Shown in pieces: positions 7,182-30,966 of a stretch of 64,000 bases of DNA; position 1 is the stretch's first letter, and every line of letters starts with the position of its first letter. Position numbers and translations under genes: made by a program. The notes under the pieces are model-generated. The model was given only the letters and a program-made list of their open reading frames with translations, did not search any database and was not told where the DNA came from. Source of the stretch: Alicyclobacillus fastidiosus (GTDB lineage Bacteria; Bacillota; Bacilli; Alicyclobacillales; Alicyclobacillaceae); the NCBI RefSeq assembly GCF_026651875.1, contig NZ_CP104067.1, positions 62,001 to 126,000 of the forward strand. Direction: 5' to 3'.

Positions 7182-7380
7182 TGGAGTCCCTCGTTTCAAC
7201 AATATCGCTTCGGAACCAACGTATATTGATTACGTCGTTCGACAAATATGACCAAAATCCTCCAATTGCAAAATGAAAGGTCATCCGTTTTCCCTTTGTA
7301 CACTGTTCACGTTCACATCCGCCCCTTTTCACCTGTTGCCGCAGAGCGGTGGAATTACGCCTTGGCGACCGCAGAGCGGG

Positions 7381-7520: not shown

Positions 7521-7941
7521 TGTCACGGGTCAGGCTGGTGCTGAGTGCAATTGCCGGCTCGCGCCCGGGCCGCCCCACCCCTATAGGCAGTTGGATGTCC
7601 GAGATCTTCCCCGGACGGGACTTGCAACTTTTATTGTATCCAAACGAGCCTCTACCAGTTTTTCTAGAAGAACTGCTATTGACCTTTGCTGCCCGATTAC
7701 GACATAACTCTAAACTGACAAATCCGCATTTTTATACAGTTTATTATTATTAATATACACGAGAATATTACTTGACGTGCAGAAAAGGAGATCAGTGTTG
7801 ATATTACTGCGGAAACTAAGCGTCGTCCATTTGTTCACTTTTGGCCGCCGATAGCAGGGTTTGCTACCTTTCCTTTTGGGAATGCTAATTTACTAGAGTT
7901 GAATCGTAGTTTCACTAGAGTCCCAAGGGGAGGTTGAACTC
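7521..7941. other. intergenic, no gene seen
   Basis: About 420 bp between the tandem repeat and the tyrosine recombinase. AT content rises after 7640. I see no convincing coding frame or RNA gene. The only clear signal is the ribosome-binding site AGGGGAGG just before 7942. Confidence 0.5.
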
Positions 7942-12460: not shown

Positions 12461-12580
12461 CTGGTGCGGTCGGGGTCCACCGTGCTGTTGACAACGCAGT
12501 ACCTCGATGAGGCCGACCAATTGGTTGACCGGATCGCGGTCAGCGACCGGGGCCGTGTCGTCGTCGAAGGGGACCGTGGA
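12461..12580 (+). pseudogene. fragment of a DrrA-like ABC transporter ATPase
   Basis: About 40 codons of an ABC ATPase: [19 protein letters not shown], then DRGRVVVEG. This is the H-loop region and following beta strands of daunorubicin-resistance-type exporters. The fragment is much richer in G and C than its surroundings, suggesting DNA from a high-GC donor such as an actinobacterium (inference). Nothing else of the gene is present. Confidence 0.65.
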
Positions 12581-12693
12581 TGTACCGGTCAAGACCACCG
12601 TTTTGAGGGGGCTTTAATCTGCAAAACGCTCAGTACTATATGTCACGTTTGGGTCATATGGTTGAACATCGGCACGGACGCGGCCGGATATAA

Positions 12694-12707
12694 GTTGAAC
12701 GTTCAAC
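12694..12707. promoter_or_regulatory. perfect 14-bp palindrome, likely TetR operator
   Basis: GTTGAACGTTCAAC is a perfect palindrome 50 bp upstream of the TetR-family gene. Size, symmetry and position fit a TetR/FadR-type operator, probably autoregulatory and controlling the catabolic operon. No second copy was noticed in the cluster. Confidence 0.65.
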
Positions 12708-12756
12708 AAAAATCCATTCCAAGGTATGGAAACTGGATGAGATGAGGAGGTGAACG

Positions 12757-13335
12757 ATGGCCAAGAGAGCTGATCGCAAACAGACGATCCTCGTCGCGGC
12801 GCGAACTTTGTTTAGTCAAAGAGGTTATCACGGCGTTTCCTTAGGTGACATTGCACATGAAGCGGGACTCAGCGTTGGACTCATTTATTACGTGTTTCCG
12901 AAGAAGGAAGACATCCTGCTTGGGGTGGTGAAAGAGGCCTCCCTTCTCTATCGGGAAGTGTTTCAGAAAATTAAGGATATCGACGATCCGATAGCGCGCA
13001 TCGATGCCCTCATGCGGGATTTGTATGAAGAACTCGACAACGGATCGAGGATCCTCATGATTCTGTATAAAGATCTTTCCACGATAGATAAGGAGACACG
13101 CCAACAGATTCTCGAACTTGAGCGCGAAACGAAGGCGAAAATCGTCGATATCATTGACGAAGGAAAGCAAAATGGCATTTTCAAACAGGCTGTCTCTTCC
13201 GAACTTGTGGCATTCAACCTGATAGGGATTGGACACTTGTGGGCATTGAAGAAGAGTTGGTTGTTCGGTGAGATGCCTCTTGAACGCTTCGTCGAGGAGC
13301 AACAGCAGTTGGTACATTCCATGCTGTTGATGTAA
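12757..13335 (+). CDS. TetR-family (FadR-like) transcriptional regulator
   Basis: 192 residues. The N-terminal helix-turn-helix is clear: KQTILVAARTLFSQRGYHGVSLGDIAHEAGLSVG, split as usual by YYVFPKKEDIL. The C-terminal ligand domain resembles FadR-type acyl-CoA-sensing regulators, though that is inferred from the neighbouring acyl-CoA genes. GGAGGTG precedes the ATG. A perfect 14-bp palindrome lies just upstream. The gene heads a same-strand run to about 24.6 kb, so it probably represses that cluster until a CoA-ester inducer appears. Confidence 0.88.
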   Translation: MAKRADRKQTILVAARTLFSQRGYHGVSLGDIAHEAGLSVGLIYYVFPKKEDILLGVVKEASLLYREVFQKIKDIDDPIARIDALMRDLYEELDNGSRILMILYKDLSTIDKETRQQILELERETKAKIVDIIDEGKQNGIFKQAVSSELVAFNLIGIGHLWALKKSWLFGEMPLERFVEEQQQLVHSMLLM

Positions 13336-13386
13336 GCGTTTACAGATTCGGTTGCATGTTTTGGACAGAAGCGTCCGGGAGGGGGA

Positions 13387-14337
13387 ATTGCCATCGCCAA
13401 CATCGTTCCGATTCGAATCACGACTCCTTATCCGGAAGGCAGTGTCAATGCGTATTTGCTCTTGGGAAACCCTGTCACTTTGATAGACACCGGCATCTGG
13501 CTTGACGATTCCGTCCGTCAGATCCATCAAGCCTTGATGAACGTAGGGCTCGACTGGAAGGATATTGACCAGATTGTCGTGACGCACATGCACACAGACC
13601 ATACCGGTGGTGTCCATGCTATTCAGCGGGAAGTGGATGCACCGATCTTTGTTCATTCTGGCGCCCGCTTTGCATTACAGGGTGGCATGGCGGAATTCGA
13701 GCGTGTGAATGCCTACTTTCAAGATTTTTTTCGCGCGTGTGGCGCCGAAGGAAAAGTGACGCGCAATCACAAATACCGGGAGCAAAAGTGGGCAGGTGTT
13801 CACTACGTGGACGACGGCGATGTCATTCGGGCTGGAAGTCGAGACTATCAGGTCTTATATGTGCCTGGACACAGTCAGACGGACATCTGTTTGTGGAATG
13901 AAGAAGCTGGCGACGCGTTTGTTGGGGATCATCTTTTAAAGGATATTTCGGCCAACGCGTTCATGGAACCGCCGTCTCCAGCACAGGCGGACCGGTTGAA
14001 GGCACTACTTCAGTACAGGAGTTCGATGGCGCGCACGAGAGCCTTGGCGTTTCGAACCGTGTATCCGGGACACGGGAGCCCGTACGTCGGGCACCAATCG
14101 TTGATTGATGCGCGTTTTCAAGAGCATGAAGAGCGTTGTGAGGCGATTCTTCAACACGTTCAGGACGGGCTAAGCACGATTTATGAGATCAGTTCTGCTA
14201 TGTTCCCATGGCTTCAGGGGGGTGCTGTGTTTCTCGGGCTTTCGGAAATTATGGGGCACATGGACCTGTTAGTAGAACGCTCTGTCGTGAAAGTGGAAAG
14301 CAATCAGGGTGTGCTGGTATACACGGCACAATCATAA
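13387..14337 (+). CDS. MBL-fold metallo-hydrolase, rare start codon likely
   Basis: A metallo-beta-lactamase-fold hydrolase of about 315 residues. The metal motif THMHTDHTGG is complete, with later ligands in VPGHSQTD, FVGDHLL and YPGHG. Family members begin with a strand like IVPIRITTPYPEGSVNAYLL, and this is encoded upstream of the first TTG at 13456. The frame holds no ATG, GTG or TTG there. It runs back to the tetR stop, and the candidates are ATT (13387) or ATC (13393), placed just after GGGAGGGGG. A rare start codon is therefore likely. In acyl-CoA clusters such proteins may act as thioesterases or lactonases. Confidence 0.78.
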   Translation: MAIANIVPIRITTPYPEGSVNAYLLLGNPVTLIDTGIWLDDSVRQIHQALMNVGLDWKDIDQIVVTHMHTDHTGGVHAIQREVDAPIFVHSGARFALQGGMAEFERVNAYFQDFFRACGAEGKVTRNHKYREQKWAGVHYVDDGDVIRAGSRDYQVLYVPGHSQTDICLWNEEAGDAFVGDHLLKDISANAFMEPPSPAQADRLKALLQYRSSMARTRALAFRTVYPGHGSPYVGHQSLIDARFQEHEERCEAILQHVQDGLSTIYEISSAMFPWLQGGAVFLGLSEIMGHMDLLVERSVVKVESNQGVLVYTAQS

Positions 14338-14352
14338 CAGGAGGGGTTTAGA

Positions 14353-15111
14353 ATGAGTCGTTTTGAGGGGCGCGTTGCGCTTGTCACAGGTGCCGGTCGC
14401 GGTATTGGGGCTGCAACTGCCAAGTGTTTGGCGGCAGGCGGAGCTAAGGTTGGTGTGTTTGATGTGAAAGAGGAGTTTACGAAGGAGACAGTGGAAGCGA
14501 TCCAGGCGGCTGGCGGCGAGGCCATCGGCGTCGGTTGTGACGTCTCCGTGGCACAAGAGGTTGAGATGGGATTCGCGCAAGTAGCCGAGAAGTTCGGCAA
14601 ACTGGATATTCTCGTCAACAATGCAGGCTTACTCCGCGACAATCTCTTGTTCAAGATGTCGGAAAATGATTGGGACACGGTGTTGGACGTGCACCTCAAG
14701 GGCAGTTTCTTGTGCAGTCGTGCCGCGCAACAGTACATGGTCAAACAGAAATACGGAAAAATCGTCAATACTAGCAGCACCTCGGCCCTCGGCAATCGCG
14801 GTCAGGCAAACTATTCCGCCGCGAAAGCAGGACTTCAAGGTTTCACGAAGACATTGGCCATCGAACTTGGGCCCTTTAACATCAATGTCAATGCGGTCGC
14901 ACCTGGTTTCATTGCAACGGATATGACGAAGGCGACGGCGGAGCGCGTCGGCATCGACTTTGAAGAAAACAAGCGTCTCGCCTCCGAACGCATTCCTCTA
15001 CGCCGCGTTGGCAGCCCAGAAGATGTGGCGAACGTTGTTGCATTTCTCGTGAGCGACGACGCGAGCTACGTGTCCGGGCAAGTCATTTATATCAACGGCG
15101 GCAGCCGCTGA
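14353..15111 (+). CDS. SDR-family oxidoreductase, FabG-like
   Basis: 252 residues, classical short-chain dehydrogenase. Motifs: TGAGRGIG for the cofactor, NNAG, the catalytic Ser in TSSTSA, and YSAAK (Tyr and Lys). It ends with VSGQVIYINGG, typical of 3-oxoacyl-ACP reductases and 3-hydroxyacyl-CoA dehydrogenases. The acidic residue after beta-2 (FDVK) suggests NAD rather than NADP. AGGAGGGG precedes the ATG. It is probably the 3-hydroxyacyl-CoA dehydrogenase of the local pathway. Confidence 0.9.
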   Translation: MSRFEGRVALVTGAGRGIGAATAKCLAAGGAKVGVFDVKEEFTKETVEAIQAAGGEAIGVGCDVSVAQEVEMGFAQVAEKFGKLDILVNNAGLLRDNLLFKMSENDWDTVLDVHLKGSFLCSRAAQQYMVKQKYGKIVNTSSTSALGNRGQANYSAAKAGLQGFTKTLAIELGPFNINVNAVAPGFIATDMTKATAERVGIDFEENKRLASERIPLRRVGSPEDVANVVAFLVSDDASYVSGQVIYINGGSR

Positions 15112-15181
15112 ATCAGCGGCGAAAGGCAAAGGTAAATCGAATTCAGGGCAATCATCTCTACCAATTTAGGGAGGTTATTAT

Positions 15182-16351
15182 ATGGATTTTAGATTGACGA
15201 AAGAACAAAAGCTCGTCCAACAAACCATTCGCGAATTCGTGAAAAACGAACTGATGCCACTCGAACAAGACGTCTTGCGAAACGAGCGTGAAGGACGCCC
15301 CGGGATGGAGCGCGAGAAGATTCGCGCACTCCAAAAGAAGGCGCAAGAGCTCGGGTTCTGGGGGATCAATACGCCGGAAGAGTACGGTGGCGCAGACTTA
15401 GGGCCAGTGATGTCCGCCTTGATTGCGATGGAACTCGGCCGGACGTTTGTACCGTTCAACTTCGGCGGCTCTGCGGACAACATTCTCTATTACTGCAACG
15501 AAGAGCAAAAAGAGAAATACTTGCTGCCAACCATCAACGGCAAGCTGAGATCGTGCTTCGCACTCACCGAGCCAGGGGCTGGTTCCGACGCTGCCAACAT
15601 TCATATGTCAGCAGTCAAGGACGGTGACCACTGGGTTCTCAACGGCGAGAAAGTCTTCATTACAAACGGCAACGAGGCGGACTTCGCCATGGTGTTCGCC
15701 GTCACGGATAAGGAGAAAGGTGCACGCGGTGGGGTGACCTGCTTCCTGGTTGATCGCGATATGGGCTGGCGGTCCGAGTACATCCATACGATGGGTGAAT
15801 GGGGACCAGCGTCGCTCGTCTTCGAGGACGTTCGTGTGCCGGAAGAAAACATTCTCGGTGAACTCGGAGGTGGCTTCAACCTCGGTATGAAGTGGATTGG
15901 CCAAGGTCGCTACATGATTCCTGCCCGCGGCGTCGGTGCGGCAGAGCGCTTACTCCAAATGGCCATCGATCACTCCAAAACACGTGTGACATTCGGCAAG
16001 CCGATTGCGGAACGCCAAGCGATTCAATGGCAAATTGCCGACTCAGCTGTGGAAATTGAGGCCACCCGTTGGCTTGTTTTACACGCGGCATGGTTGGCGG
16101 AGAATGGCAAGGATCCACGCCACTATGCTTCCATGGCGAAACTGTTCGGCGCAAACATGGCGAATGACGTTTGCGACAGAGTGCTGCAGATTCACGGGGG
16201 CATGGGTTATACGAAAGAACTGCCGATTGAGCGCTGGTATCGCGAAATGAGAGTCTGGCGCATCTTTGAGGGCACGGACGAAATCCAACGCTTCATTATC
16301 TCGCGCAATCTGCTTCGCGGTCACGTGAAGGTCGGAGACTTGATGGACTGA
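15182..16351 (+). CDS. acyl-CoA dehydrogenase
   Basis: 389 residues, full length for the family. N-terminal helical part (FRLTKEQKLVQQTIREFV), middle beta domain with CFALTEPGAGSDAANI and WVLNGEKVFITNG, and C-terminal part with QIHGGMGYTKELPIERWYREMR and IFEGTDEIQ, which carries the catalytic Glu at the usual position (FEGTDE). It would introduce the alpha,beta double bond into an acyl-CoA using FAD. The next gene starts five bases after its stop, so transcription is shared. Confidence 0.93.
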   Translation: MDFRLTKEQKLVQQTIREFVKNELMPLEQDVLRNEREGRPGMEREKIRALQKKAQELGFWGINTPEEYGGADLGPVMSALIAMELGRTFVPFNFGGSADNILYYCNEEQKEKYLLPTINGKLRSCFALTEPGAGSDAANIHMSAVKDGDHWVLNGEKVFITNGNEADFAMVFAVTDKEKGARGGVTCFLVDRDMGWRSEYIHTMGEWGPASLVFEDVRVPEENILGELGGGFNLGMKWIGQGRYMIPARGVGAAERLLQMAIDHSKTRVTFGKPIAERQAIQWQIADSAVEIEATRWLVLHAAWLAENGKDPRHYASMAKLFGANMANDVCDRVLQIHGGMGYTKELPIERWYREMRVWRIFEGTDEIQRFIISRNLLRGHVKVGDLMD

Positions 16352-16356
16352 CGCGA

Positions 16357-17031
16357 ATGAGATTCGAGACGCATCTGCATACAGCCACCGGATCGCACGA
16401 CGGCGCCATTCAACTGGAAGAGTTGGTGAATTGGGTCAACACATCCGACATCTGCGGCGTATGTATTACGGATCACGACTATGTGTGGACCCGACGGGAT
16501 GCACAGGCCTTACGTGATGCGACGGACGTGATTGTTATCTGCGGCGTAGAGGTCACGACGAACCTCGGGCATGTGCTCACGTACGGCTTGGATGCGTATT
16601 TGCCAGGGATTCACGATATCGAGGTGCTGCGTCGATACGTGGATGAAGTCGACGGCGTGATGGTCTTGGCGCATCCGTTCCGCAGTGAGATTTCGCCGTA
16701 TTACACGTACGGGCATATACCAAAGGGACTTCCGCCTTGGGAGGAAGTCGTGAGACGTCCCGTGTTTCAGTATGTGAATGCACTGGAGGCGTGCAATGGG
16801 TCTGGTGTTCCACAAGAGGAAAATTTGGTAAGACAGGCGGCCAAGGACTTGGGATTGCCCGTGACCGGCGGCAGTGATGCACACCACGCCGATAAGTTGG
16901 GGTTGTGCGTCACCGAGTTTACGGTGGACATTTCGTCAGAGCGCGCGTATATCGAAGCCATCCGCGAGGGGCATTGCAACGGAGTGGACTTACGGTTGCA
17001 TGGAAAGGTGGGGGAGTCACGTGTTGATTGA
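16357..17031 (+). CDS. PHP-domain metal-dependent phosphoesterase-like protein
   Basis: 224 residues with the PHP metal motifs in order: HLHTATGSHDG, CITDHDY, CGVEVTT, LAHPFRSE and GSDAHH. PHP proteins hydrolyse phosphoesters or act on nucleotides; the substrate here is unknown. It lies inside the acyl-CoA gene run, five bases after the dehydrogenase and overlapping the next start by 11 bases, so it belongs to the operon. That is an unusual partner for beta-oxidation-type genes. Confidence 0.8.
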   Translation: MRFETHLHTATGSHDGAIQLEELVNWVNTSDICGVCITDHDYVWTRRDAQALRDATDVIVICGVEVTTNLGHVLTYGLDAYLPGIHDIEVLRRYVDEVDGVMVLAHPFRSEISPYYTYGHIPKGLPPWEEVVRRPVFQYVNALEACNGSGVPQEENLVRQAAKDLGLPVTGGSDAHHADKLGLCVTEFTVDISSERAYIEAIREGHCNGVDLRLHGKVGESRVD

Positions 17032-17446
17032 CAAGAATGTCATTGGGCGCACTGGGGAAGCGCGTGCCATCGAGATCGAAAAGGGAGCTATTCGCAAATT
17101 TGTGGAGGCGATTGGCGACAAGAATCCGCTGTATTGCGATGAGGCGTACGCACAAGCCAATGGATATGCGAGTCTCGTCGCGCCGCCGACGTTTCCGACG
17201 ACATTTCGCTTACCATTGCCTGATGTGCATTTCGAATTGAGTCGCGTCCTGCACGGCGAGCAGGAATACACCTACGAGCGCCCGATTGTCGCGGGGGACG
17301 TACTCCGCTGTTCCAGCCGTGTGGCGGATGTGTATGAGCGGTCTGGCAAGCTTGGGAACATGACTTTTCTCGTGACGGAAATCATAGGCGAAGATGTCGG
17401 TGGACATCTCGTATTCTCAGGTCGGAGTACCATCATCCTGCGGTAG
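17021..17446 (+). CDS. MaoC-like hotdog protein, FAS1-dehydratase N-domain type
   Basis: About 141 residues starting at GTG 17021 (or TTG 17024) five to eight bases after GGTGGGGGAG. The sequence GAIRKFVEAIGDKNPLYCDEAYAQANGYASLVAPPTFP is the conserved start of MaoC N-terminal (FAS1_DH-like) hotdog domains, followed by HGEQEYTYERPIVAGDVL. These usually form a heterodimer with a catalytic MaoC partner, which is the next gene. Role: enoyl-CoA hydration. Confidence 0.85.
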   Translation: MLIDKNVIGRTGEARAIEIEKGAIRKFVEAIGDKNPLYCDEAYAQANGYASLVAPPTFPTTFRLPLPDVHFELSRVLHGEQEYTYERPIVAGDVLRCSSRVADVYERSGKLGNMTFLVTEIIGEDVGGHLVFSGRSTIILR

Positions 17447-17464
17447 TCATAGGGAGGGTTGAAG

Positions 17465-17881
17465 ATGAGTCTCATCGGTTTTGCAGAGGCTGAAGTTGGC
17501 ACGGTTGCACCACCGCTGGTGAAGCCGGCGATTGAAAAAGTGCAGCTGGTCAAATACGCGGGTGCATCAGGGGACTTCAACCTGATTCACACAGATGACG
17601 AAACGGCACGCAAGGTGGGACTGCCTGGCGTCATTGCACACGGCATGCTCAGTATGGGCTTCCTCGGCCAGTATGCCAGCGAGTTGGTCGGCAATCGAGG
17701 ATATGTGCGACAACTGAAGGTCCGGTTCGCCGGCATGGTGCGTCCCGGCGACGTGCTGACGTGCACTGGGCACGTCGTTGCGAAGAATGAACAAGAAAAG
17801 ACCCTCACATTAGCGATTCAGGCGGCCCGCGATGAAGGAAAACCGCAGACGATTGGCGAGACCACCCTTCAGTACCTATGA
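17465..17881 (+). CDS. MaoC-like enoyl-CoA hydratase subunit
   Basis: 138 residues from the ATG at 17465, six bases after AGGGAGGG. It has the hydratase-2 motif YAGASGDFNLIHTDDETA with the catalytic Asp and His, then GLPGVIAHGMLSMGFLGQ. It should hydrate an enoyl-CoA to a 3-hydroxyacyl-CoA together with the upstream MaoC-like subunit. The pair resembles split hydratases of steroid side-chain degradation (ChsH1/ChsH2 type), which is an inference from architecture only. Confidence 0.88.
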   Translation: MSLIGFAEAEVGTVAPPLVKPAIEKVQLVKYAGASGDFNLIHTDDETARKVGLPGVIAHGMLSMGFLGQYASELVGNRGYVRQLKVRFAGMVRPGDVLTCTGHVVAKNEQEKTLTLAIQAARDEGKPQTIGETTLQYL

Positions 17882-17990
17882 GCAGAAGTCCGAGAATGTC
17901 GACACCCATCTTGTTTCTTATGGGAACGGTGTTCTTAACCAGGCACTTTAGGGAATTAAGGTACTCAAGCACAGTGAGGTGATGAATCCA

Positions 17991-19136
17991 ATGACGTCAG
18001 ACCGGATAGCTGCAATTGTCGGTGTCGCCGAATCTGATCTGGGCTATACGCCGGGTAAAACGGTCCTGCAATTGCAAGCGCAGGCAGCGAAGGCTGCCCT
18101 TGCAGAAGCAGGTTTCACCAAGGATGACGTGGATGCTGTCTTCACAGCGGGCAATTGGGCATGGGCACCGAATCTCATGTTGGCGGAGTATCTTGGCATT
18201 CAGCCGAAATTTACCGACGGTACGAACATCGGCGGGAGTTCCTTCGAAGCTCACGTCGGTCATGCGATGGCGGGCATCAAGGCAGGACTGTTCGATGTCG
18301 CATTAATCACGTACGGCAGTACGCAGAAATCGAATCGGGGCAGAATGGCGATGTCTCCATACGTCACATTGACAGAACAGTTTGAACGTTGGTGCGGATT
18401 ACCGACTCCTGTCGGCGCGTATGCGATGGCTGCGATGCGCCACATGCACCAATATGGCACCACGAGTGAACAACTTGCTGAAATTGCCGTTGCGACGAGA
18501 AAGTGGGCAACGATGAATGAGAAGGCCATGATGCGGGATCCCATTACGATTGACGACGTGTTGAATTCGCGCTGGATTGCAGAACCGCTTCACTTGCTCG
18601 ACTGTTGTCTCGTGACAGACGGCGGTGGCGCCGTGGTTGTCGCGTCGAAGCAGGCGGCAGCCAGAGCAAAGACAAAACCGGTCTGGATTTTGGGGCACGG
18701 GGAGACGCATACGCACAACAGCATCGTCAACATGCCAGATTTGACGGTAACCGGAGCGCGAGAGTCGGGCCGCAAAGCGTTTGAGATGGCCGGTATCGGC
18801 CATCATGAGATCGATGTGGCAGAGATTTACGATTCGTTCACCATTACCGTCCTGTTGACGTTGGAAGCGCTCGGTTTCTGTCAGTTTGGTGAAGGTGGCG
18901 CGTTTGTGAGTGGTGGACGGACTGCTCCAGGCGGAGACTTCCCGATGAACACGAACGGCGGTGGCCTTTCCTATTGTCATCCGGGGATGTACGGCATCTA
19001 TCTTCTCATTGAAGCCGCGAGGCAGTTGCGGGGAGAGTGTGGAGATAGGCAAGTGGCGGACGCAAAAATCGCCTTGGTCAACGGCACTGGCGGTGTCCTA
19101 TCTTCTACTTCTACTGTGATACTAGGGAGGGATTGA
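17991..19136 (+). CDS. thiolase-fold protein lacking the nucleophilic cysteine, aldolase-like
   Basis: 381 residues of the SCP2-thiolase/lipid-transfer type. I start at the ATG at 17991, with GAGGTGATG upstream. Where true thiolases have Asn-x-x-Cys, this protein reads TDGTNIGGSSFEAHVGHA, so the cysteine is missing. The late segment NTNGGGLSYCHPGMYGIY keeps the HP motif and offers a tyrosine, and AEIYDSFTI another. Cysteine-less members paired with a DUF35 protein, such as Ltp2, are retro-aldolases that cut a 3-hydroxyacyl-CoA side chain. The next gene is exactly such a DUF35 protein, starting one base after this stop, so the aldolase call is well supported but not proven. Confidence 0.8.
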   Translation: MTSDRIAAIVGVAESDLGYTPGKTVLQLQAQAAKAALAEAGFTKDDVDAVFTAGNWAWAPNLMLAEYLGIQPKFTDGTNIGGSSFEAHVGHAMAGIKAGLFDVALITYGSTQKSNRGRMAMSPYVTLTEQFERWCGLPTPVGAYAMAAMRHMHQYGTTSEQLAEIAVATRKWATMNEKAMMRDPITIDDVLNSRWIAEPLHLLDCCLVTDGGGAVVVASKQAAARAKTKPVWILGHGETHTHNSIVNMPDLTVTGARESGRKAFEMAGIGHHEIDVAEIYDSFTITVLLTLEALGFCQFGEGGAFVSGGRTAPGGDFPMNTNGGGLSYCHPGMYGIYLLIEAARQLRGECGDRQVADAKIALVNGTGGVLSSTSTVILGRD

Positions 19137-19137
19137 T

Positions 19138-19548
19138 ATGGAGAGCCGTTTTCCATTACCCGTTCGTGACGGTGATTCAGCGCCCTACTGGGAAGGCGTC
19201 GATGAGGGTCAATTGCGCATTCAAAAGTGTCAGACCTGCGAGCGACACATTTTTTATCCAAGATCCATTTGTCCACATTGTTTTTCAGACGTAATTGATT
19301 GGGTGACAGCCAGCGGCGCCGGTCGCATTTACGCTTACACCGTGGTACATCGGTCATTCGGTCCATTTGCGGAGGAGACGCCGTTTGTCGTCGCCATTGT
19401 CGAACTGGCCGAGGGCGTGCGCATGATGACGCGCACCAAAGGGCCGCGTGACCTAGTCCGCATTGGCGCACCTGTTCGCGTCACGTTTGAGAAAATCGAC
19501 GACAACCTGACCCTCCCCTACTTCGAAGTTGTGGACGACGCGGACTAA
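19138..19548 (+). CDS. DUF35/ChsH2-like zinc-ribbon OB-fold protein
   Basis: 136 residues. The rubredoxin-like zinc site is CQTCERHIFYPRSICPHC, followed by the OB-fold part with GRIYAYTVVH. Such DUF35 proteins bind and stabilise thiolase-fold aldolases or thiolases and help bind CoA. GGGAGGG precedes the ATG. Adjacency (one base) to the thiolase-fold gene predicts a stable complex. Confidence 0.9.
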   Translation: MESRFPLPVRDGDSAPYWEGVDEGQLRIQKCQTCERHIFYPRSICPHCFSDVIDWVTASGAGRIYAYTVVHRSFGPFAEETPFVVAIVELAEGVRMMTRTKGPRDLVRIGAPVRVTFEKIDDNLTLPYFEVVDDAD

Positions 19549-19581
19549 GTCTTTGAATTTGAGTTGGGAAAAGAGGTCTAT

Positions 19582-20370
19582 GTGACGATGTACAACTTTA
19601 CAGGCAAACGGGTCCTGGTGACTGGGGCATCACAGGGTATCGGGGAACATATCGTGTACGGCTTTGCAGAAGCTGGTGCAAAGGTTGCTCTGCTGTCGCG
19701 GCGCGAAGAGAAATTGCTGTGGGTGAAGGCGCAGCATCCTAAGCTCGTAGAGGCACCAGTGTACGCGGCGGACGTGCGAGACGAGCACGCCATCGCGTGC
19801 GTCTTTGATGATATCGAGAGAAATTTCGGCGGGATCGACATTTTGATCAACAATGCTGGTGGCAGTTTCTATGCGAAGGCAGCAGATTTGAGCCCGAACG
19901 GGTTTGCGTCGGTGCTCAACATCAATCTGCTGGGGCCGTACATCCTTTCCAAAGCCGCGTTTCGGCTGATGTCTGAACAACGTCGAGGGGTAATTGTTAA
20001 CATCGGCTCGGTCGCCGGCCGCGACAGTGCGCCGGGCATGGTCGCGTACGGTGCTGCGAAGGCGGGACTCGTCAACATGACGCGCACCTTGGCCACCGAA
20101 TGGGGCCCCTTGGGGATCCGAGTCAACACGGTCGCACCAGGGCCGATTCTCACGGATGCAGCAAAGGACGTGCTTTATCAGAATTCGGCGAAGCGGATTG
20201 AGCGAGCAGGCAAAACGAGATCCGTCGGGCGGCTAGGCGTTCCTGCCGACGTCGTGGAGGCAGTCCTGTATTTAGCATCGCCATCTGCAGCATTTATCAA
20301 CGGGACCACGTTGTACGTCGACGGTGGACCTACGGTGGCTCCCGTGGTGGATCAGGAGGTGGTTGAGTGA
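19582..20370 (+). CDS. SDR-family oxidoreductase
   Basis: 262 residues from GTG 19582 (AGAGG five bases before; ATG at 19588 is an alternative). Motifs TGASQGIG, NNAGG, Ser in NIGSVAG and YGAAKAG show a classical SDR. The ending INGTTLYVDGG is typical of acyl-CoA or keto-ester reductases. It is the second dehydrogenase in the cluster. The following ligase gene starts inside its stop codon (4-bp overlap GTGA). Confidence 0.88.
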   Translation: MTMYNFTGKRVLVTGASQGIGEHIVYGFAEAGAKVALLSRREEKLLWVKAQHPKLVEAPVYAADVRDEHAIACVFDDIERNFGGIDILINNAGGSFYAKAADLSPNGFASVLNINLLGPYILSKAAFRLMSEQRRGVIVNIGSVAGRDSAPGMVAYGAAKAGLVNMTRTLATEWGPLGIRVNTVAPGPILTDAAKDVLYQNSAKRIERAGKTRSVGRLGVPADVVEAVLYLASPSAAFINGTTLYVDGGPTVAPVVDQEVVE

Positions 20371-22496
20371 GTACACTAACGAGTCCGGAGCGGTTATGCC
20401 AATTCTTCCATCCGAAAAGCATTGCGCTCGTTGGTGCGACAGATAAATCGAGATGGTCACTTTTCACTTATCTAAATGTGAAGAGTTTTGGGGGGCGAGA
20501 CGGAGCGACGATTCACTGTGTTCATCCGAAGCATGCCGTGGTGCACGGACAGAAGGCGGTCGCATCATTGCTCGATATCGAGGAACCGGTTGATCTCGCA
20601 TATGTCATGGTGCCAACCACCCAGGTGCTGCAAGTTCTGAGAGACGCGGATGCGGCGAACATTCGCAATCTGGTGATCCTCACATCGGGATTTAGCGAGA
20701 TCGGACCAGAGGGGAGTGCGTTGGAACGCGAGGTGCTCGAATTTGCAGAGTCGCACAACCAAGTGCTGCTCGGCCCAAATGGCAACGGGTTCGTGAATGT
20801 CTCCGCTCAGTTGACGCCGTACGGCCTTCCGATCACGCCGCCGTTGAAGCCTGGCCCTGTGGGGATTGTCCTGCAGAGCGGCGCTTTGGCCAGTACAGTT
20901 CTGACGCTTGCACAAGCACGAAACGTGGGGCTCAGTCTGTTGGTGTCCATGGGCAACGAAACGATGATGTCGGCGACGGACGTCATGGACTATTTAATTG
21001 AGGACGAATCGACGAAAGTCCTCGCAGTCTTCCTGGAGTCGATTCGTCAGCCGAAGGAATTTGAGTGCATTGCAAAGAAAGCCCTGGCACATGGTAAGCC
21101 CATTGTTGCGATGAAAATCGGCCGCAGCGAACACAGCGCCAAAACGGCGATGGCTCATACAGGTGCGCTCGTCGGCGACGATGCCGTCAATGATGCGGCA
21201 TTCCGTCAACTGGGAGTTATCCGCGTGCACTCCTTGGAAGATCTCATTACGACAGCAGGTCTTCTTGGCTATACGCCGCCCTTGACCGGCCGCCGATTAG
21301 GTGTCGTAACGCCGTCTGGCGGGGCGTGCGACATCTTGTCCGATCGCGCTACTGACGAAGGTATCCTTTTGCCAGAGTTCGCCCCGGAGACGGTCGATCG
21401 ATTGAAAGAGATTGTACCCACCTTCTCCACGGTTCACAATCCACTGGATGTCACAGGCTTCGTCGTAGTCGATGGCACCCTGATGCGCCGTGCACTCGCT
21501 GTGGTCTCGAATGACCCAGGCTTTGATTTTCTCTTATGCCTAACGGATCCGCCGAGAGCGGAACCAGAGGATGTCGGCCCCTTGTTCGACCAATATGGGC
21601 AACTTCGAGACGTCATTCAACGGTCCAACATTCCTATCGTCATCGTGAGCAACAGCTCTATCGACATCACACCATTTGGTCGATCCGTTCTCGAAAAGTT
21701 CAATTTACACTTCGTCGGCGGGATGGAACACGGCATGTCTGCTCTTGGGAAGGCCGTGTGGTGGCACGAAAAATACCGTGAAACGAAAGCCCAATCGCAT
21801 GCGTACGAAATCCCGCGAGGACCAGAGGGGCGGTTGCCTGCAGGAGAATGGAGCGAACACGCGGCACGGGCTTTTTTGGCGGAACATGGTGTGCCGGTTG
21901 TGCCTGGCGTGCTTGCAGGGACATTGGATGAAGCCATCAATGCGGCGAACTCCGTCGGCTATCCGGTCGTGTTAAAAGTTCAGTCTCCCGATATTCAGCA
22001 CAAGAGTGATGTCGGTGGCGTTGCTTTAGGGCTTCAATCTGAAGCGGAGGTTCGGGACGCATTTGAGAGGATTCTCGCATCAGTCAAACAGCACGTCCCA
22101 AACTGCCAACTAGACGGCATTCTCGTCTCCCCGATGCGGGGGGATGGCATTGAGATGTTGGTCGGGGTCGTTCGTGATGCGCTCTGGGGCCCAGTGCTTG
22201 CCGTGGGCATGGGGGGGATCTTTGTCGAAGTCCTCAAGGACACGAGTCTACGTGTCCTGCCGGTGACGCACAATGACATCCGTGGCATGTTGCAGGAGCT
22301 GCGCAGCGGATCGCTCCTACAGGGCGTTCGTGGTAGAACAGGGGCTGACCTAGACCGGTTGGTAGACGTCATCTATCAAATTGCTCAGGTCGCCGTTTGT
22401 CACGCCGAACAATTGCGGGCGCTTGAAGTGAATCCACTGTGGGTACGCGGTTCGCACGTTGAAGCACTCGATGCACTGGTGTCTATAGAGAACTGA
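20367..22496 (+). CDS. ADP-forming acetyl/acyl-CoA synthetase, fused alpha and beta subunits
   Basis: 709 residues. CoA-binding domain first (FHPKSIALVGATDKSRW, then GPNGNGFVN), then the succinyl-CoA-ligase-like domain with the phospho-histidine segment MAHTGALVGDDAV, and finally an ATP-grasp domain starting EHAARAFLAEHGVPVVPG with VLKVQSPDIQHKSDVGGV. It would activate a carboxylic acid to its CoA ester with ATP, giving ADP and phosphate. It starts at GTG 20367, coupled to the upstream SDR. It is the probable entry enzyme of the pathway. Confidence 0.92.
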   Translation: MSTLTSPERLCQFFHPKSIALVGATDKSRWSLFTYLNVKSFGGRDGATIHCVHPKHAVVHGQKAVASLLDIEEPVDLAYVMVPTTQVLQVLRDADAANIRNLVILTSGFSEIGPEGSALEREVLEFAESHNQVLLGPNGNGFVNVSAQLTPYGLPITPPLKPGPVGIVLQSGALASTVLTLAQARNVGLSLLVSMGNETMMSATDVMDYLIEDESTKVLAVFLESIRQPKEFECIAKKALAHGKPIVAMKIGRSEHSAKTAMAHTGALVGDDAVNDAAFRQLGVIRVHSLEDLITTAGLLGYTPPLTGRRLGVVTPSGGACDILSDRATDEGILLPEFAPETVDRLKEIVPTFSTVHNPLDVTGFVVVDGTLMRRALAVVSNDPGFDFLLCLTDPPRAEPEDVGPLFDQYGQLRDVIQRSNIPIVIVSNSSIDITPFGRSVLEKFNLHFVGGMEHGMSALGKAVWWHEKYRETKAQSHAYEIPRGPEGRLPAGEWSEHAARAFLAEHGVPVVPGVLAGTLDEAINAANSVGYPVVLKVQSPDIQHKSDVGGVALGLQSEAEVRDAFERILASVKQHVPNCQLDGILVSPMRGDGIEMLVGVVRDALWGPVLAVGMGGIFVEVLKDTSLRVLPVTHNDIRGMLQELRSGSLLQGVRGRTGADLDRLVDVIYQIAQVAVCHAEQLRALEVNPLWVRGSHVEALDALVSIEN

Positions 22497-22540
22497 CAGG
22501 CTGGCGGCGTCAAGTCGCCTAGCTCAACTATCAAAGTTTT

Positions 22541-22555
22541 TTGAAAACGGTTACA
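22541..22555. promoter_or_regulatory. cre-like site for CcpA
   Basis: TTGAAAACGGTTACA matches the catabolite-responsive element consensus WTGNAANCGNWNNCW at every position. It lies 144 bp before the transporter start, in the 200-bp gap that separates it from the ligase gene. This suggests carbon catabolite control of uptake; binding is inferred. Confidence 0.5.
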
Positions 22556-22698
22556 TTTTCCGCTAGCAGAGGGAATATATAGATACCCAAGAGCGAGGAA
22601 AAGGGTTGCGTTCATCTGATTATATCTGAATATTAAAACTAATGTGAAGTCGGTAAGGGGCAAAATCGCAACCGCCCGAGTAGAGGAGGATAAAGCGT

Positions 22699-23997
22699 AT
22701 GATGAGTTGGGTACAATCTCGATACATCATGAAGTATCCAGTCGGCTGGATGCGCGTAGGTTTGCTTGCCCTCGTGATTATTGCCAACATTGTCGCAAAC
22801 TATGAAGGGGAACTGGCACCAGTCGTTCCCATCATGCTTCCAGACTTGCATTTATCTTTGACGGACTACGGTTTCATCGTTGCAGGGAGTGCTGTCATTT
22901 CAGCGATTGTGGCGCTTATCTCTGGTCCATGGATCGACAAGTACGGACGTATGTTCTTTGTTGTCGCAGGAACGCTCGTCACCGCCATTGCTGTGTTCGC
23001 AATGTGCCTCGTTCACAACACAACGCAATTTATTATTGTTCGTTTCATCATGGCCATCATTCTAGGTGTCTGCATTCCGGCGACGACAGGGCTGATTCGG
23101 GACTTTACACCACGTGTTGGACGCGCCTTAGGCTTTGGACTTTGGACCTTCGGCCCGGTAGGAGCGAACTACTTGGCTGCGGGTGTCGCGGGTGCTACAT
23201 TGCCGAAGTTTCACAATACGTGGCAATCGCAGTTTGTCATTATGGGCATCTTCTGTCTCATCGTCGCGCTGATTGTTGCCTTCCTCATTCGCGATTTGTG
23301 TCCTGGTCTACGCGCCCAAATCGTTCAAGACCATAACGATGTTGCGAGTGTCAACCAGTCTTCAAAGGATAAAGATGAAACCATCGCGTCGACGAAACTG
23401 GTGTATGGTTCGTTTCGCATTTGGGCCCTGGCAGTCGGTATCGTCCTGTTCCTGCTCTTGTACTTCTTTAACCAAGCATTTGGCCCGGTGTATTTAACGA
23501 CCGTGTTCAAGTATTCGCCGGCAAAAGCGTCTACCTTTGCTAGTTACTTCTGGCTTGCCAACATGGTTGCGTTGGTCGTGGTTGGTTGGCTGTCCGACAG
23601 ATTGCGACTGCGCAAAATCTTTTCCTTCATCGGTGTCATCGGCTTACTCCTCTTTATGTACTTCTGGATTCACCTAATCGGTCATCATGTGTCAACTGGA
23701 ACCATGATACTGTACAACTCATTGTCAGGTGTTCTCCTTGGGATTGGGTTTGGACCTTGGATGGCCTTGTTCTCAGAAAACCTTGAAGACATTCATCCAA
23801 CCTTGCAGGCAACTGGCTGGGCAATCTGGGCATTTGCGACCAATGTCCTTGTGGCTGTTGCTGGGTCCATCACCTTTCCAGTCGCAGATAAATATGGCTT
23901 TGGCGCTTGGTTCGACGTGTGCTGGATAGGTGCCGCGGTTTACGGTGTTCTCATCTTTGTCGGTCGAGGACCTTGGTTCAAGAGCAAACGCGCCTGA
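22699..23997 (+). CDS. MFS transporter, probable organic-acid uptake
   Basis: 432 residues with about 12 hydrophobic segments. The loop between segments 2 and 3 reads SGPWIDKYGRMFFVVAG, a classic MFS motif, and the second-half equivalent is VGWLSDRLRLRKIF. GAGGAGG precedes the ATG. A cre-like site and a possible separate promoter lie upstream. The neighbouring CoA ligase suggests import of an organic acid. Substrate not determinable. Confidence 0.88.
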   Translation: MMSWVQSRYIMKYPVGWMRVGLLALVIIANIVANYEGELAPVVPIMLPDLHLSLTDYGFIVAGSAVISAIVALISGPWIDKYGRMFFVVAGTLVTAIAVFAMCLVHNTTQFIIVRFIMAIILGVCIPATTGLIRDFTPRVGRALGFGLWTFGPVGANYLAAGVAGATLPKFHNTWQSQFVIMGIFCLIVALIVAFLIRDLCPGLRAQIVQDHNDVASVNQSSKDKDETIASTKLVYGSFRIWALAVGIVLFLLLYFFNQAFGPVYLTTVFKYSPAKASTFASYFWLANMVALVVVGWLSDRLRLRKIFSFIGVIGLLLFMYFWIHLIGHHVSTGTMILYNSLSGVLLGIGFGPWMALFSENLEDIHPTLQATGWAIWAFATNVLVAVAGSITFPVADKYGFGAWFDVCWIGAAVYGVLIFVGRGPWFKSKRA

Positions 23998-24082
23998 AAC
24001 AATATGCCGCGTGTGGCGGTGGCCGCGCGCGGCAGGGCAACGCAAGAAAGTAAGTTGGAAGAAATCATAGGGAGGAAACAAC

Positions 24083-24608
24083 ATGGATCGAGATCCAGTG
24101 ATTATCGCGGCCGTTCGCACGCCGATTGCCCGCATGGGTGGCGCGCTTGCGTCCGTTCCCCCACATTATTATGCGGCTACCGTAATTGCGGAGTCCATTT
24201 CGCGTGCCAATGTACAGCCAGACATGATAGATGATGTCGTGATGGGCAACGTCCTGGGAGGAGGCGGTAATATTGCACGCGTGTCAGCGCTGAAAACAGC
24301 GTTATCGCTTGCCATTCCAGGCCTAACGGTGGATCGACAATGCGGGTCAGGACTGAACGCCCTTCATATAGCGGCACAAGCCATCCAGGCGGGAGACGGC
24401 GATATCTACATCGCCGGCGGGGTAGAGAGTTACAGTCAAGCACCTTATATGATGGCCAAGCCAACGACTCTGTACAGCTTGCAACCTCCTCAATTTCAAC
24501 GATTAAAATTGTCGCCGCGCGAAGTCGGAAACCCGCCGATGGGCATTACGGCAGAAAATCTCGCAAAGAAATACGAGATTAGTCGTGAAGAACAGGATCA
24601 GTTTGCCC
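24083..24608 (+). pseudogene. acetyl-CoA acetyltransferase (thiolase), truncated by a MITE
   Basis: The N-terminal 175 residues of a classical thiolase: IIAAVRTPIARMGG and the nucleophile motif DRQCGSGLNALHIA are intact. After REEQDQFA the reading frame enters the 109-bp MITE at 24609 and stops. Sequence beyond the MITE does not continue the thiolase, so the C-terminal half (with GHPxG and CxG) is deleted, not merely interrupted. The gene had AGGGAGG before its ATG and was the last of the catabolic run. Its loss leaves the cysteine-less homologue as the only thiolase-fold enzyme here. Confidence 0.85.
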
Positions 24609-24717
24609 GGTTCTGGTGCAAAAAATTTTAGGCACGCCATATATAGTGAACATGGACCTGATTTGATTCAAAATCCCGTCCAGATATGGTGTGTACAAAT
24701 ATTTTTGCACCAGAACC
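24609..24717. mobile_element. 109-bp MITE with IS6-type terminal repeats
   Basis: Both ends read GGTTCTGGTGCAAAAA inward, the same ends as the IS6-family element at 35144-35971. The inside has no gene. One half is similar to the 100-bp copies at 38707 and 39532 (for example ACACCATAT in the left arm when reversed). The flanking 8-mers differ, so a deletion or other rearrangement followed insertion. Confidence 0.85.
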
Positions 24718-24985
24718 ACCCGCTCAAGGTCCAATGCGTTATTCGTGTTATCGAGCACCAACAGCCCCCCTCTACACAACTGCATGCCATCTATCTCTGA
24801 CATACACACTCTGGTGTAACATCACACGGTCCTTCCTTTCAAGAGACAGGGCTGGCTACCGTGGTACAATAGTGACAAAAGTGGGCTTGACTCGGGCGAA
24901 TGTAGGCGTCGTGAAGTAAGCCGCATCACGTCTGTATATCCGTATGTAGTGCAGGAGGTTAACCAATCAACAAGAATGGATCAAC
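24718..24985. other. intergenic, no gene seen
   Basis: About 270 bp between the MITE and a small reading frame. A TGGTACAATA near 24860 could be a -10 element. An AGGAGGT at 24952 is followed by no well-spaced ATG. Confidence 0.35.
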
Positions 24986-25159
24986 ATGTTCGTAATAAAA
25001 GGAGCAGGCAGCAGAAAGACAGGCTTTCGAGCAATCAGCGAGGTCGTGTCGGCTCGTGGTCATGGTAACCGAGACCTGATTACGTTGCTTCTGGACAAGG
25101 TGATGCAATCTAACGACCCAAAGTATCTTCCGCTGCTTTCGGAGGTGGGAACCGATTGA
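24986..25159 (+). CDS. 57-residue hypothetical protein, doubtful
   Basis: A short frame (MFVIKGAGSRKTGF, then LITLLLDKVMQSNDPKYLPLL) that reads like coding sequence but has its ribosome-binding site (AGGAGGT at 24952) too far away. It could be the tail of a gene truncated upstream. No family recognised. A 24-bp direct repeat starts 36 bases after it. Confidence 0.3.
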   Translation: MFVIKGAGSRKTGFRAISEVVSARGHGNRDLITLLLDKVMQSNDPKYLPLLSEVGTD

Positions 25160-25194
25160 GTATATAAGGTTCAGGTGATGATTCGCCGAGTCAT

Positions 25195-25218
25195 TCAACA
25201 ACTGGAGTCATGCAGAAC
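25195..25218 (+). repeat. 24-bp direct repeat, first copy
   Basis: TCAACAACTGGAGTCATGCA plus four more bases recurs without mismatch at 26350-26373. The two copies bracket the zinc-finger/TPR gene. Confidence 0.8.
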
Positions 25219-25249
25219 GTAACAACTCATAGAAAGGACCAGACGCAAG

Positions 25250-26341
25250 ATGAAAAGGACACCGAAAACATCACCTAAGGTGCAGATGAATCCGCGGCTG
25301 ATGGCAGCTATTGGAATTGAGCGACAAGAGAACAACACATCAGTTGTACAGCTCTCTGCGTTGCCTGGCACATATGCAGAGATCGTTCATCGCAAACGGC
25401 AGTATGTTCCGAACGATTACACAGAGAACAAACAATGGTTGACATGTCGCGGGTGCGGCCGGCGGGGTCAATATGACCTCGGCCTGATTGTGGTTCATCC
25501 GGAATTATTCCAAAAAACAAATCCATTCGCCCATGCTGGTCACGAAGAAGAGAGTCTTGGACAAGTAGCGCAGGATATTTATGATTACATTCAGTTTACG
25601 GGGTATTTCCGATGCAAGCATTGCAATGGGGGAGGGGAGTGGTCGTTCGGGAATGACTTTATAATGTTCCTCCTAGCAGCCACGCTTCGATGGAGTGTAA
25701 CGGATGACGATGATGGATCGGTGGTTCAGTTCGGTAGCTTTCAATCCTTCGATGGACATGAACCCAAGTCGGCGACGGATGCGGAGGAGCATTTGCTTGA
25801 CCTAATTGTGCAAAAACCAGATGACGCATTTCTGTGGAACCGCCTTGGCAATGTGTATCGACGTGGTGGTGCGCCTGAGCTTGCTGTTGTTGCCTTCGAA
25901 CAATCTCTTCGCAATGACAGTGCTCAGGTAGAGTCGCACGCATCACTGGCCAATATTCTCTACCACATTGACGAACTTGAAGCTTGCATCCGTCATTCTC
26001 ATTTAGCCCTTGCCCATGCGAGGTTCTACACTAAGCTCGAGTTTACTGAACGCCATAAAATGATTCGTCTGTTGCTTCGCAATTTGCTTGATGCATCGAT
26101 GGCTCTGGATAACACTGACTTGTTTCTGCCCTCCAGGGAATTGATGGAAGCTGCCGCTTTTCACCACGGAAAACCTGTTGCAGAGTCAGATGGAATTCTG
26201 GATCTTCGCTCATTTGATTTATATCTCGATGACATCGACAGCTTTGCAGGCCTTGCGGATGTTTACGTTGGTTCACTAGGGCGAACGCGAAAATCGACAG
26301 GGTCCAGGCATCACAAAAAGAAAAAGAAGCGCAAGAGATAG
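25250..26341 (+). CDS. zinc-finger and TPR protein, unknown function
   Basis: 363 residues. Two CxxC pairs, CRGCG (residues 64-68) and CKHC (residues 121-124), probably form one zinc site. Residues 185-270 look like tetratricopeptide repeats (AFLWNRLGNVYRRGGAPELAVVAFEQSL, then SHASLANILYHIDELEACI). The protein ends in a very basic tail (HHKKKKKKRKR type), suggesting nucleic-acid or membrane contact. The start at 25250 follows GAAAGGA weakly. It is bracketed by a 24-bp direct repeat. I recognise no named family. Confidence 0.6.
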   Translation: MKRTPKTSPKVQMNPRLMAAIGIERQENNTSVVQLSALPGTYAEIVHRKRQYVPNDYTENKQWLTCRGCGRRGQYDLGLIVVHPELFQKTNPFAHAGHEEESLGQVAQDIYDYIQFTGYFRCKHCNGGGEWSFGNDFIMFLLAATLRWSVTDDDDGSVVQFGSFQSFDGHEPKSATDAEEHLLDLIVQKPDDAFLWNRLGNVYRRGGAPELAVVAFEQSLRNDSAQVESHASLANILYHIDELEACIRHSHLALAHARFYTKLEFTERHKMIRLLLRNLLDASMALDNTDLFLPSRELMEAAAFHHGKPVAESDGILDLRSFDLYLDDIDSFAGLADVYVGSLGRTRKSTGSRHHKKKKKRKR

Positions 26342-26349
26342 GTTAGTAC

Positions 26350-26373
26350 TCAACAACTGGAGTCATGCAGAAC
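26350..26373 (+). repeat. 24-bp direct repeat, second copy
   Basis: Second perfect copy of the repeat at 25195-25218, nine bases after the end of the TPR gene. Confidence 0.8.
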
Positions 26374-28539: not shown

Positions 28540-28595
28540 GTTCACCTCATTATTTCTTTCAATCGGTTATCATTGTTCACATATTTACGTAAACA

Positions 28596-30963: not shown

Positions 30964-30966
30964 ACG

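Follow-up and report, generated by a model that had tools for sequence, protein, structure and literature searches.

The window analysed here is a stretch of 64,000 nucleotides from Alicyclobacillus fastidiosus (contig NZ_CP104067.1, positions 62,001 to 126,000). No contig of the assembly, which has 6.0 Mb and an estimated contamination of 9.38%, is larger than this one. Its forward strand carries, between positions 12757 and 24608 of the window, a gene cluster that encodes at 17979–19136 a thiolase-fold protein of 385 amino acids devoid of the nucleophilic cysteine. We assign a probability of about 0.65 to the reading that this protein is a retro-aldolase working with the product of the adjacent DUF35 gene (19138–19548) in a TetR-controlled catabolic operon.

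The cluster opens with the gene of a TetR-family regulator (12757–13335; Pfam TetR_N), followed by those of a metallo-β-lactamase (MBL)-fold metallohydrolase (13456–14337; Pfam Lactamase_B), a FabG-like short-chain dehydrogenase/reductase (SDR1, 14353–15111; identified by domain searches), an acyl-CoA dehydrogenase (15182–16351; Pfam Acyl-CoA_dh domains) and a PHP-domain metallohydrolase of the CehA/McbA type (16357–17031; Pfam PHP and PHP_C, and NCBIfam NF038032 at 84.9 bits, cut-off 80). Upstream of the thiolase-fold gene lie two MaoC-type genes, encoding subunit a (about 17021–17446, with an uncertain start codon; FAS1_DH_region) and subunit b (17459–17881; MaoC_dehydratas), together with a 46-bp scar of a major facilitator superfamily (MFS) transporter gene (17896–17941). 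The open reading frame (ORF) of the DUF35 protein (zf-ChsH2 and OB_ChsH2_C) begins one base past the thiolase-fold stop codon, and it is followed by the genes of a second SDR (19564–20370; Pfam adh_short_C2), an acyl-CoA synthetase of the ADP-forming type (20367–22496; CoA_binding_2, Succ_CoA_lig and ATP-grasp_5), an MFS transporter (22699–23997; Pfam MFS_1) and a truncated classical thiolase (24083–24608, with the ORF running to 24631). The original prediction, made from the letters alone, had named a cysteine-less thiolase with DUF35 one base behind it, two MaoC genes, an ADP-forming CoA ligase and a truncated classical thiolase, and the domain searches and alignments bear out each of these. 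This set and order of genes recurs at locus L137 of a same-genus genome (G006), where the genes are 71–93% identical (71% for the TetR regulator, 83% for SDR2, 84% for the MFS transporter and 93% for the acyl-CoA dehydrogenase; the MBL-fold gene is likewise collinear). L137 additionally has one more MFS gene, between MaoC subunit b and the thiolase-fold gene, and a full-length thiolase. Within 12500–25300, promoter-like sites (10 found versus 8.8 in shuffled sequences) and terminator-like sites (8 versus 12.2) are no more frequent than expected by chance.

Around the nucleophile position the thiolase-fold protein reads TDGTNIGGSSFEAH, and alignment with cysteine thiolases places Gly86 at the position of the nucleophilic cysteine. 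The protein matches the Thiolase_C_1 domain and the subfamily NF004811 (PRK06158), the latter at 521 bits with a cut-off of 421. Conservation was read in 80 loci, the best 80 of 427 in a species-level genome collection, picked by six peptide patterns that include YCHPGMYG and none of which contains the YDSF or GG motifs. Gly85, Gly86, Tyr284, Asp285, Phe287, Tyr332, His334 and Pro335 are invariant in 80/80 of these loci, and both the nucleophilic cysteine and the histidine of the HDxF motif are absent from all 80. The cysteine is likewise missing, and Tyr284, Asp285, Phe287 and His334 are likewise present, in 37/37 rows of alignment A1. A pattern-free check is provided by 17 aligned homologues from the family searches, 15 of which have Gly86, Tyr284 and His334, the other two (L017 and L021) being cysteine thiolases with HD; L001 and L002, which represent the copy in the window itself, were left out of the alignment of loci, and so were weak partial matches (L018, L019 and any match that has no locus). 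Judged by the residues of a thiolase, the protein thus lacks the nucleophilic cysteine, has Tyr284 in place of the HDxF histidine or the NEAF asparagine, and retains the GHP-motif histidine as His334.

The characterised enzymes to which this active site can be related are Ltp2 and Sal, which act on the side chains of steroids and bile acids, respectively. According to excerpts of the Sal report (PMC12329534), Sal has a glycine for the thiolase cysteine, the tyrosine of its YDCY motif is needed for activity, with a proposed role as the base that abstracts the β-hydroxyl proton, and Ltp2 carries the same tyrosine. The position of Sal Cys304 and Ltp2 His296 is occupied by Ser286 in the window (serine in 57/80 and alanine in 23/80 loci), while the position of Ltp2 Tyr344 and Sal Gln352 is occupied in 80/80 loci by His334, which lies in a CHPG motif at the place of the thiolase histidine. 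A comparison with the active-site tyrosines of Ltp2 had been proposed, and it yields a mixed answer, since one tyrosine is kept (Tyr284) and the other is a histidine here. In the wider Thiolase_C_1 family, 50 of 62 related rows are cysteine-less with YD, seven have the cysteine with HD and five are mixed; this correlation is a pattern in aligned sequences and not a test. With the cysteine absent from 80/80 related loci, its loss is a family trait and no peculiarity of the window protein.

The maximum-likelihood tree of these 62 rows comprised the window, four PDB chains, 28 loci from the family and genome searches and 29 of the 30 loci of a wider search, L123 (165 aa) having been dropped; the only solved structures in it were 4u4e, 9myr, 6ok1 and 7yvy, so that TbSLP, BbsB and the SCP-2 thiolases are not represented. 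A single group (92/99) unites 51 cysteine-less rows, among them the window, Ltp2 and Sal, and the 10 cysteine rows constitute one side of a branch (88/85); neither of these two branches is starred for support. The window falls inside its own 37-row clade (99/95), outside both the Ltp2 and the Sal clades. Uniting this clade with the 10 cysteine thiolases, an arrangement chosen for testing after the tree was seen, lowered the log-likelihood by 41.8 and was rejected (P value of the approximately unbiased test, p-AU, 0.0036). In the phylogeny, a kind of evidence that the original prediction had named as a possible source of refutation, the protein thus sides with Ltp2 and Sal, apart from the cysteine thiolases.

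The structural comparison that had also been suggested gives a concordant result. The AlphaFold2 model of the thiolase-fold protein has a mean predicted local distance difference test (pLDDT) score of 87, and its best matches are Sal (Z 52.6), 4u4e (51.9), Ltp2 (50.8) and TbSLP (50.4), followed by archaeal and DUF35-linked thiolases with Z values of 45–49. In a sequence search of the PDB the closest chain is 4u4e, and then come Sal, Ltp2 and BbsB. Two side observations concern the family as a whole. G041 and G042, the genomes of L098 and L065, contain 18 and 17 Thiolase_C_1 matches, respectively, and the 62 rows include further active-site variants (YDGF with arginine, YDNF with tyrosine, and HDAF without cysteine) that point to more unexplained thiolase-fold clades.

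The best PDB matches of the DUF35 protein are 9myr_B and 6ok1_B, the chains solved with Sal and Ltp2, respectively, and its CxxC...CxxC motif (part of a zinc ribbon that precedes an OB fold) is found in 66 of 69 loci. Gene neighbourhoods were counted in the 68 of 84 loci whose flanks both extend over 6 kb or more, which include related species and are therefore not independent, and the loci were classed by identity to the window enzyme (≥75%, n=31; 60–75%, n=19; <60%, n=18). A DUF35 gene lies within 6.5 kb of the enzyme in 31/31 loci of the first class, there on the same strand, and in 19/19 of the second. Because of the 31/31 association and the collinearity of the whole cluster in L137, the adjacency of both genes is, as far as gene order can tell, not due to chance. 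In the ≥75% class, an acyl-CoA dehydrogenase is found near the enzyme in 27/31 loci, an ADP-forming CoA ligase in 17/31 and any CoA ligase, ADP- or AMP-forming, in 29/31. The MaoC pair is present in 12/31, including loci of Brevibacillus, Bacillaceae and Ktedonobacteria (Chloroflexota) with differing gene orders. As the remaining close loci contain only the dehydrogenase, the enzyme, DUF35, the CoA ligase and transporters, the common core would be limited to activation, desaturation and the thiolase-fold enzyme.

The MaoC pair itself follows the division of labour of heteromeric hydratases of the ChsH1-ChsH2 or HadA-HadB kind. Subunit a reads GDKNPLY, with a tyrosine for the catalytic histidine in the window and in 14/14 loci, and it has weak PDB matches to a MaoC-like dehydratase, to ChsH1/ChsH2 entries and to HadA/HadC-type chains. 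Subunit b reads GDFNLIH, with the Asp/His dyad in the window and in 13/13 readable loci (the row of L040 being unreadable), and HadB is its closest relative among solved structures, with HadB chains within the three best PDB matches. In ChsH1-ChsH2, excerpts of the published work describe one subunit with the Asp/His dyad and another that is inert (PMC11321319). Since HadA/HadB share this division and subunit b is closest to HadB, the pair alone, judged by analogy, is no pointer to bulky substrates. The "split MaoC" of the original prediction consequently holds as regards the presence of two genes, but these would form an ordinary two-subunit hydratase; what is split in comparison with ChsH2 is the DUF35 protein from the inert MaoC.

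Taking these data together, the best reading is that the enzyme represents a distinct clade of the known kind of DUF35-associated retro-aldolases, belonging to neither the Ltp2 nor the Sal clade: the cysteine is absent, the YDxF tyrosine is present, DUF35 is encoded alongside and the protein groups with both. In the proposed pathway, an organic acid would be imported by the MFS transporter, activated by the ADP-forming type CoA ligase and desaturated by the acyl-CoA dehydrogenase, and the enoyl product would be hydrated by the MaoC hydratase, with b as the catalytic and a as the inert subunit. The resulting 3-hydroxyacyl-CoA would then be cleaved between C2 and C3. With Tyr284 taking the 3-hydroxyl proton, C–C cleavage would yield a ketone or aldehyde and the enolate of an acyl-CoA; protonation of this enolate by a general acid, for which His334 is the likeliest candidate, would give acetyl- or propionyl-CoA. 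The carbonyl product may then be reduced or oxidised by the SDRs, unless these belong to a second, ordinary round of β-oxidation whose dedicated thiolase has been lost here. Gene order, families, the lack of the cysteine, the conserved tyrosine and histidine, the phylogeny and the fold can be read from the sequence or its model, while the reaction, the part played by His334, the complex with DUF35 and the regulation are what we infer from them.

Several observations weigh against this proposal. We know of no activity for any member of this clade, and among the listed matches of a literature search limited to open-licence papers there was no functional study of it. Neither Tyr344 of Ltp2 nor Cys304 of Sal, the respective second catalytic residues, has a counterpart here. 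Excerpts of the Sal report indicate that Cys304Ser has no detectable activity (PMC12329534), and a serine is exactly what stands here, so that an aldolase with this site would need another source of the proton. The former thiolase histidine, His334, is on sequence grounds the most likely general acid, but its assignment rests on an alignment beside the model stretch 328–333, which with a pLDDT under 50 is among the weakest of the model, and the conservation at 332–335 is in part an artefact of selecting loci by YCHPGMYG. Among the 62 rows, L131 combines the cysteine with YD and L121 lacks the cysteine but has HD. The branch leading to Sal is long, the Z margins of the model are modest, and a common fold proves no function. 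DUF35 is nearby in only 10/18 loci of the <60% class, and the MaoC pair is missing from the vicinity in 19/31 loci at ≥75% identity, in 16/19 at 60–75% (present in 3/19) and in 18/18 below 60%; wherever it is missing, another hydratase would have to serve. Domain searches recognised no aldehyde dehydrogenase among the cluster genes of the window. Lastly, the comparison of 13 genes with L137 gives proportions of nonsynonymous differences (pN) of 0.045–0.18 and near-saturated proportions of synonymous differences (pS) of 0.66–0.90 (used instead of dN/dS, as synonymous sites are saturated in 9/13 genes), a point in favour of the proposal, but this low pN would reflect past and not present constraint, because the broken thiolase piece, one of the 13, has a low pN as well.

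An unlikely competitor is a cysteine-independent thiolase or other Claisen-type enzyme, for which SDR1 would make a 3-ketoacyl-CoA that the thiolase-fold/DUF35 pair cleaves in the way BbsAB acts on benzoylsuccinyl-CoA. BbsA and BbsB are indeed relatives, the thiolase histidine is retained as His334 in 80/80 loci, and a FabG-like SDR is a frequent neighbour (16/31, 18/19 and 8/18 loci in order of decreasing identity), which agrees with a route through 3-keto intermediates and with a thiolase-like function, and to that extent speaks against an aldolase. The same can be said of the name of NF004811, acetyl-CoA acetyltransferase, although such a name does not fit a protein without the cysteine. 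Opposed to this competitor are the lack of both the nucleophilic cysteine and the HDxF histidine in all 80 loci, the rejected grouping with cysteine thiolases and the separate classical thiolase that the L137 cluster already has; moreover, a glycine at the cysteine position precludes thiolysis in the view of the Sal authors (excerpts of PMC12329534). We regard as still less probable that the protein cleaves nothing and serves as an acyl-CoA binding protein, a scaffold or a weak decarboxylase. Excerpts of the same report do mention that other enzyme complexes are kept together by their DUF35 domains and that TbSLP has only a very low malonyl-CoA decarboxylase activity (PMC12329534), but the active-site tyrosine, histidine and glycines are constant across phyla, and the enzyme usually clusters with a CoA ligase and an acyl-CoA dehydrogenase in the ≥75% class.

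A Firmicute version of Ltp2 or Sal acting on steroid or bile-acid side chains, the logic favoured by the original prediction, seems very improbable. The closest characterised relatives do act on steroid side chains, and the inert MaoC subunit has its weak matches to ChsH1/ChsH2; the protein nevertheless lies outside the Ltp2 and Sal clades, its second catalytic residue differs and no steroid gene is recognised among the cluster genes. A genome search for an HsaC-type ring dioxygenase (TIGR03213) gave a best score of 77 bits against a cut-off of 366, a weak test, in that 14 control genomes likewise had nothing above the cut-off and other steroid genes were not searched. A steroid substrate is therefore not supported. 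The retro-aldolase part of the prediction fares better, being consistent with the grouping with Ltp2 and Sal, the tyrosine in 80/80 loci, the structural matches, DUF35 and the catalytic/inert MaoC pair. The earlier reader thus saw a real thing and plausibly guessed the type of reaction; the comparison with the steroid system should be dropped, the two tyrosines should be replaced by one tyrosine and a histidine, and the lineage should be widened.

This last point follows from the distribution of the loci, whose hosts belong to Bacillota, Chloroflexota, Actinomycetota and Pseudomonadota, contrary to the earlier emphasis on a Firmicute. A homologue of at least 65% identity is found in 15/41 genomes of the family, the window genome included, and the latter has a single Thiolase_C_1 protein at E ≤ 0.001; so patchy a module is as expected of an accessory catabolic trait. 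Matches were also found in 576 plasmid records, and four regions were read. In plasmid 2 of Polaromonas sp. JS666 (L149, 1–15583), a 61% homologue and its OB-fold partner end a long cluster annotated with HMG-CoA (3-hydroxy-3-methylglutaryl-CoA) lyase, carboxylase subunits, crotonase, acyl-CoA dehydrogenase, MBL hydrolase, MaoC and a "cyclohexanecarboxylate-CoA ligase", a context that hints at branched or alicyclic acids. The regions from Sulfitobacter, Achromobacter and Shinella contain other gene mixtures, and hence no substrate can be derived from the plasmids. With low confidence, the most likely substrate of the retro-aldolase is a β-branched or alicyclic acid: a C3 without hydrogen leaves no way for ordinary thiolysis, and it is a β-branched or ring-bearing acid that would need a retro-aldol step. 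A cyclohexanone route with a Baeyer-Villiger monooxygenase was considered and, though conceivable, is not supported, the only candidate being one weak match to the flavin-containing monooxygenase (FMO)-like family of 19.8 bits (22 with its neighbours, equal to the cut-off).

A broader proposal, which we hold tentatively and with somewhat less than even confidence, is that the clade constitutes a third catalytic class of DUF35-dependent acyl-CoA retro-aldolases, with Tyr+His instead of the Tyr+Tyr of Ltp2 or the Tyr+Cys of Sal, acting on non-steroid β-branched or alicyclic acids in four phyla under the false name of acetyl-CoA acetyltransferase. It might possibly supply the missing enzyme of orphan lyase reactions, an example of which is the conversion of 1-hydroxycyclohexylacetyl-CoA into cyclohexanone and acetyl-CoA. 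In the open-licence literature examined, retro-aldolases of the thiolase fold have been shown for steroid side chains only. If the members of this clade, too, are aldolases, proteins named acetyl-CoA acetyltransferase in at least four phyla would be misannotated, the catabolism of branched and alicyclic acids would be wrong at the cleavage step in genome-based models, and a biocatalyst that cleaves C–C bonds, or forms them in reverse, with a solved but unexplained structure (4u4e) would become testable. The operon names its own assay, as ligase, dehydrogenase, hydratase and candidate aldolase are all encoded in it.

The cluster is, to judge from its sequence, partly decayed in this genome, with the other genes still open, since the classical thiolase is broken by a 109-bp element and one MFS gene is reduced to the 46-bp scar, which has 40/46 identities to the start of the L137 MFS gene. 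The thiolase piece keeps QCGSG and shows 64% identity to residues 15–192 of a full-length homologue, but homology ends at 24607, approximately at codon 175, with nothing significant beyond, whereas L137 has at the same place a full-length thiolase of 396 aa, so that the truncation is a local decay. No significant second piece was found within the 64-kb window, and a continuation elsewhere in the genome can be discarded, the matches to a full-length homologue at E ≤ 0.001 being this piece and four longer paralogues of 40–49% identity. The truncation says nothing on aldolase chemistry, although it makes it likely that the putative aldolase formerly had a classical thiolase at its side. The interrupting element (24609–24717) has 34-nt terminal inverted repeats (82% complementary), and its outer 16–17 nt equal the ends of an apparently complete IS240-type insertion sequence (IS) at 35139–35976 that has 21-nt perfect inverted ends and a DDE_Tnp_IS240 transposase (35206–35901); matches of 30–40 nt to the ends of the element occur at other places of the genome.

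Further candidate mobile sequences lie downstream of the broken thiolase. Directly behind it, at 25195–26377, a pair of 28-nt direct repeats with 96% identity and a distance of 1155 bp flanks a segment in which an ORF with TPR-like and CxxC stretches (25250–26341, assigned by eye) may be a separate inserted unit. At 29578–32508, two serine recombinases with Resolvase domains lie head to tail, three bases apart, and near them a phage-type integrase (27382–28545, by eye) perhaps marks the border of a mobile island beside the catabolic cluster. Farther away on the reverse strand, a KAP-family P-loop NTPase (49629–51761) beside a resolvase-like ORF (51783–52367, by eye) is possibly a defence or mobile-element gene. 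The rest of the window includes a collagen-like protein on the reverse strand (46328–48826) that looks like an exosporium-type Gly-X-Y protein (named by eye) and whose repeat array (46362–47962) consists of about 167 copies of a 9-bp unit at 99% identity and some 11 further ones, with other frames of both strands open across it as well; a perfect 10-bp tandem repeat, GGGTATCGCA, at 7378–7521 (14.4 copies, 100% matches), open in several frames on both strands; and spore germination genes of the GerA and GerAC families (57539–60291; Pfam), upstream of which lies a possible GerB-type transporter (55534–56646, by eye).

Among the known systems, the steroid C3 side-chain aldolase Ltp2-ChsH2(DUF35) (PDB 6ok1) likewise combines a cysteine-less thiolase fold, the YDxF tyrosine and a DUF35 partner, and the ChsH1-ChsH2 hydratase shares with the window a two-subunit MaoC organisation with one inert subunit. 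The differences are nonetheless considerable: Ltp2 is 34% identical over the model, has YDHF instead of YDSF, and has Tyr344 and His296 in the places of His334 and Ser286. Unlike in ChsH2, DUF35 is here a separate gene (19138–19548) and is not fused to the inert MaoC (17021–17446), and the cluster has a catalytic MaoC nearest to HadB, an ADP-forming type ligase and no recognised steroid genes. The bile-acid C5 side-chain aldolase Sal-Shy(DUF35) (PDB 9myr) is the best structural match (35% identity) and is similar in its tyrosine, the glycine for cysteine and the DUF35 partner, but its essential Cys304 of YDCY is Ser286 and its Gln352 is His334 in the window enzyme, whose hydratase is two-subunit and separate. 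The DUF35 protein Shy has a Cys3His1 zinc site, as stated in excerpts of its report (PMC12329534), in place of the CxxC...CxxC of the window.

The BbsAB benzoylsuccinyl-CoA thiolase (PDB 7pxp) likewise joins a thiolase fold to a DUF35 subunit, but it has HDAF where the window has YDSF and is named a thiolase. A further pair is IpfDE of ibuprofen degradation, of which we take IpfE to be a DUF35 protein. In the excerpted literature, this "thiolase" pair has been credited with the release of propionyl-CoA (PMC9195938). The nearest solved structure of all is PDB 4u4e, a "putative thiolase" of Sphaerobacter thermophilus listed without function, which is 58% identical to the window enzyme and has the same GGSS, YDSF and SYxHPG motifs.

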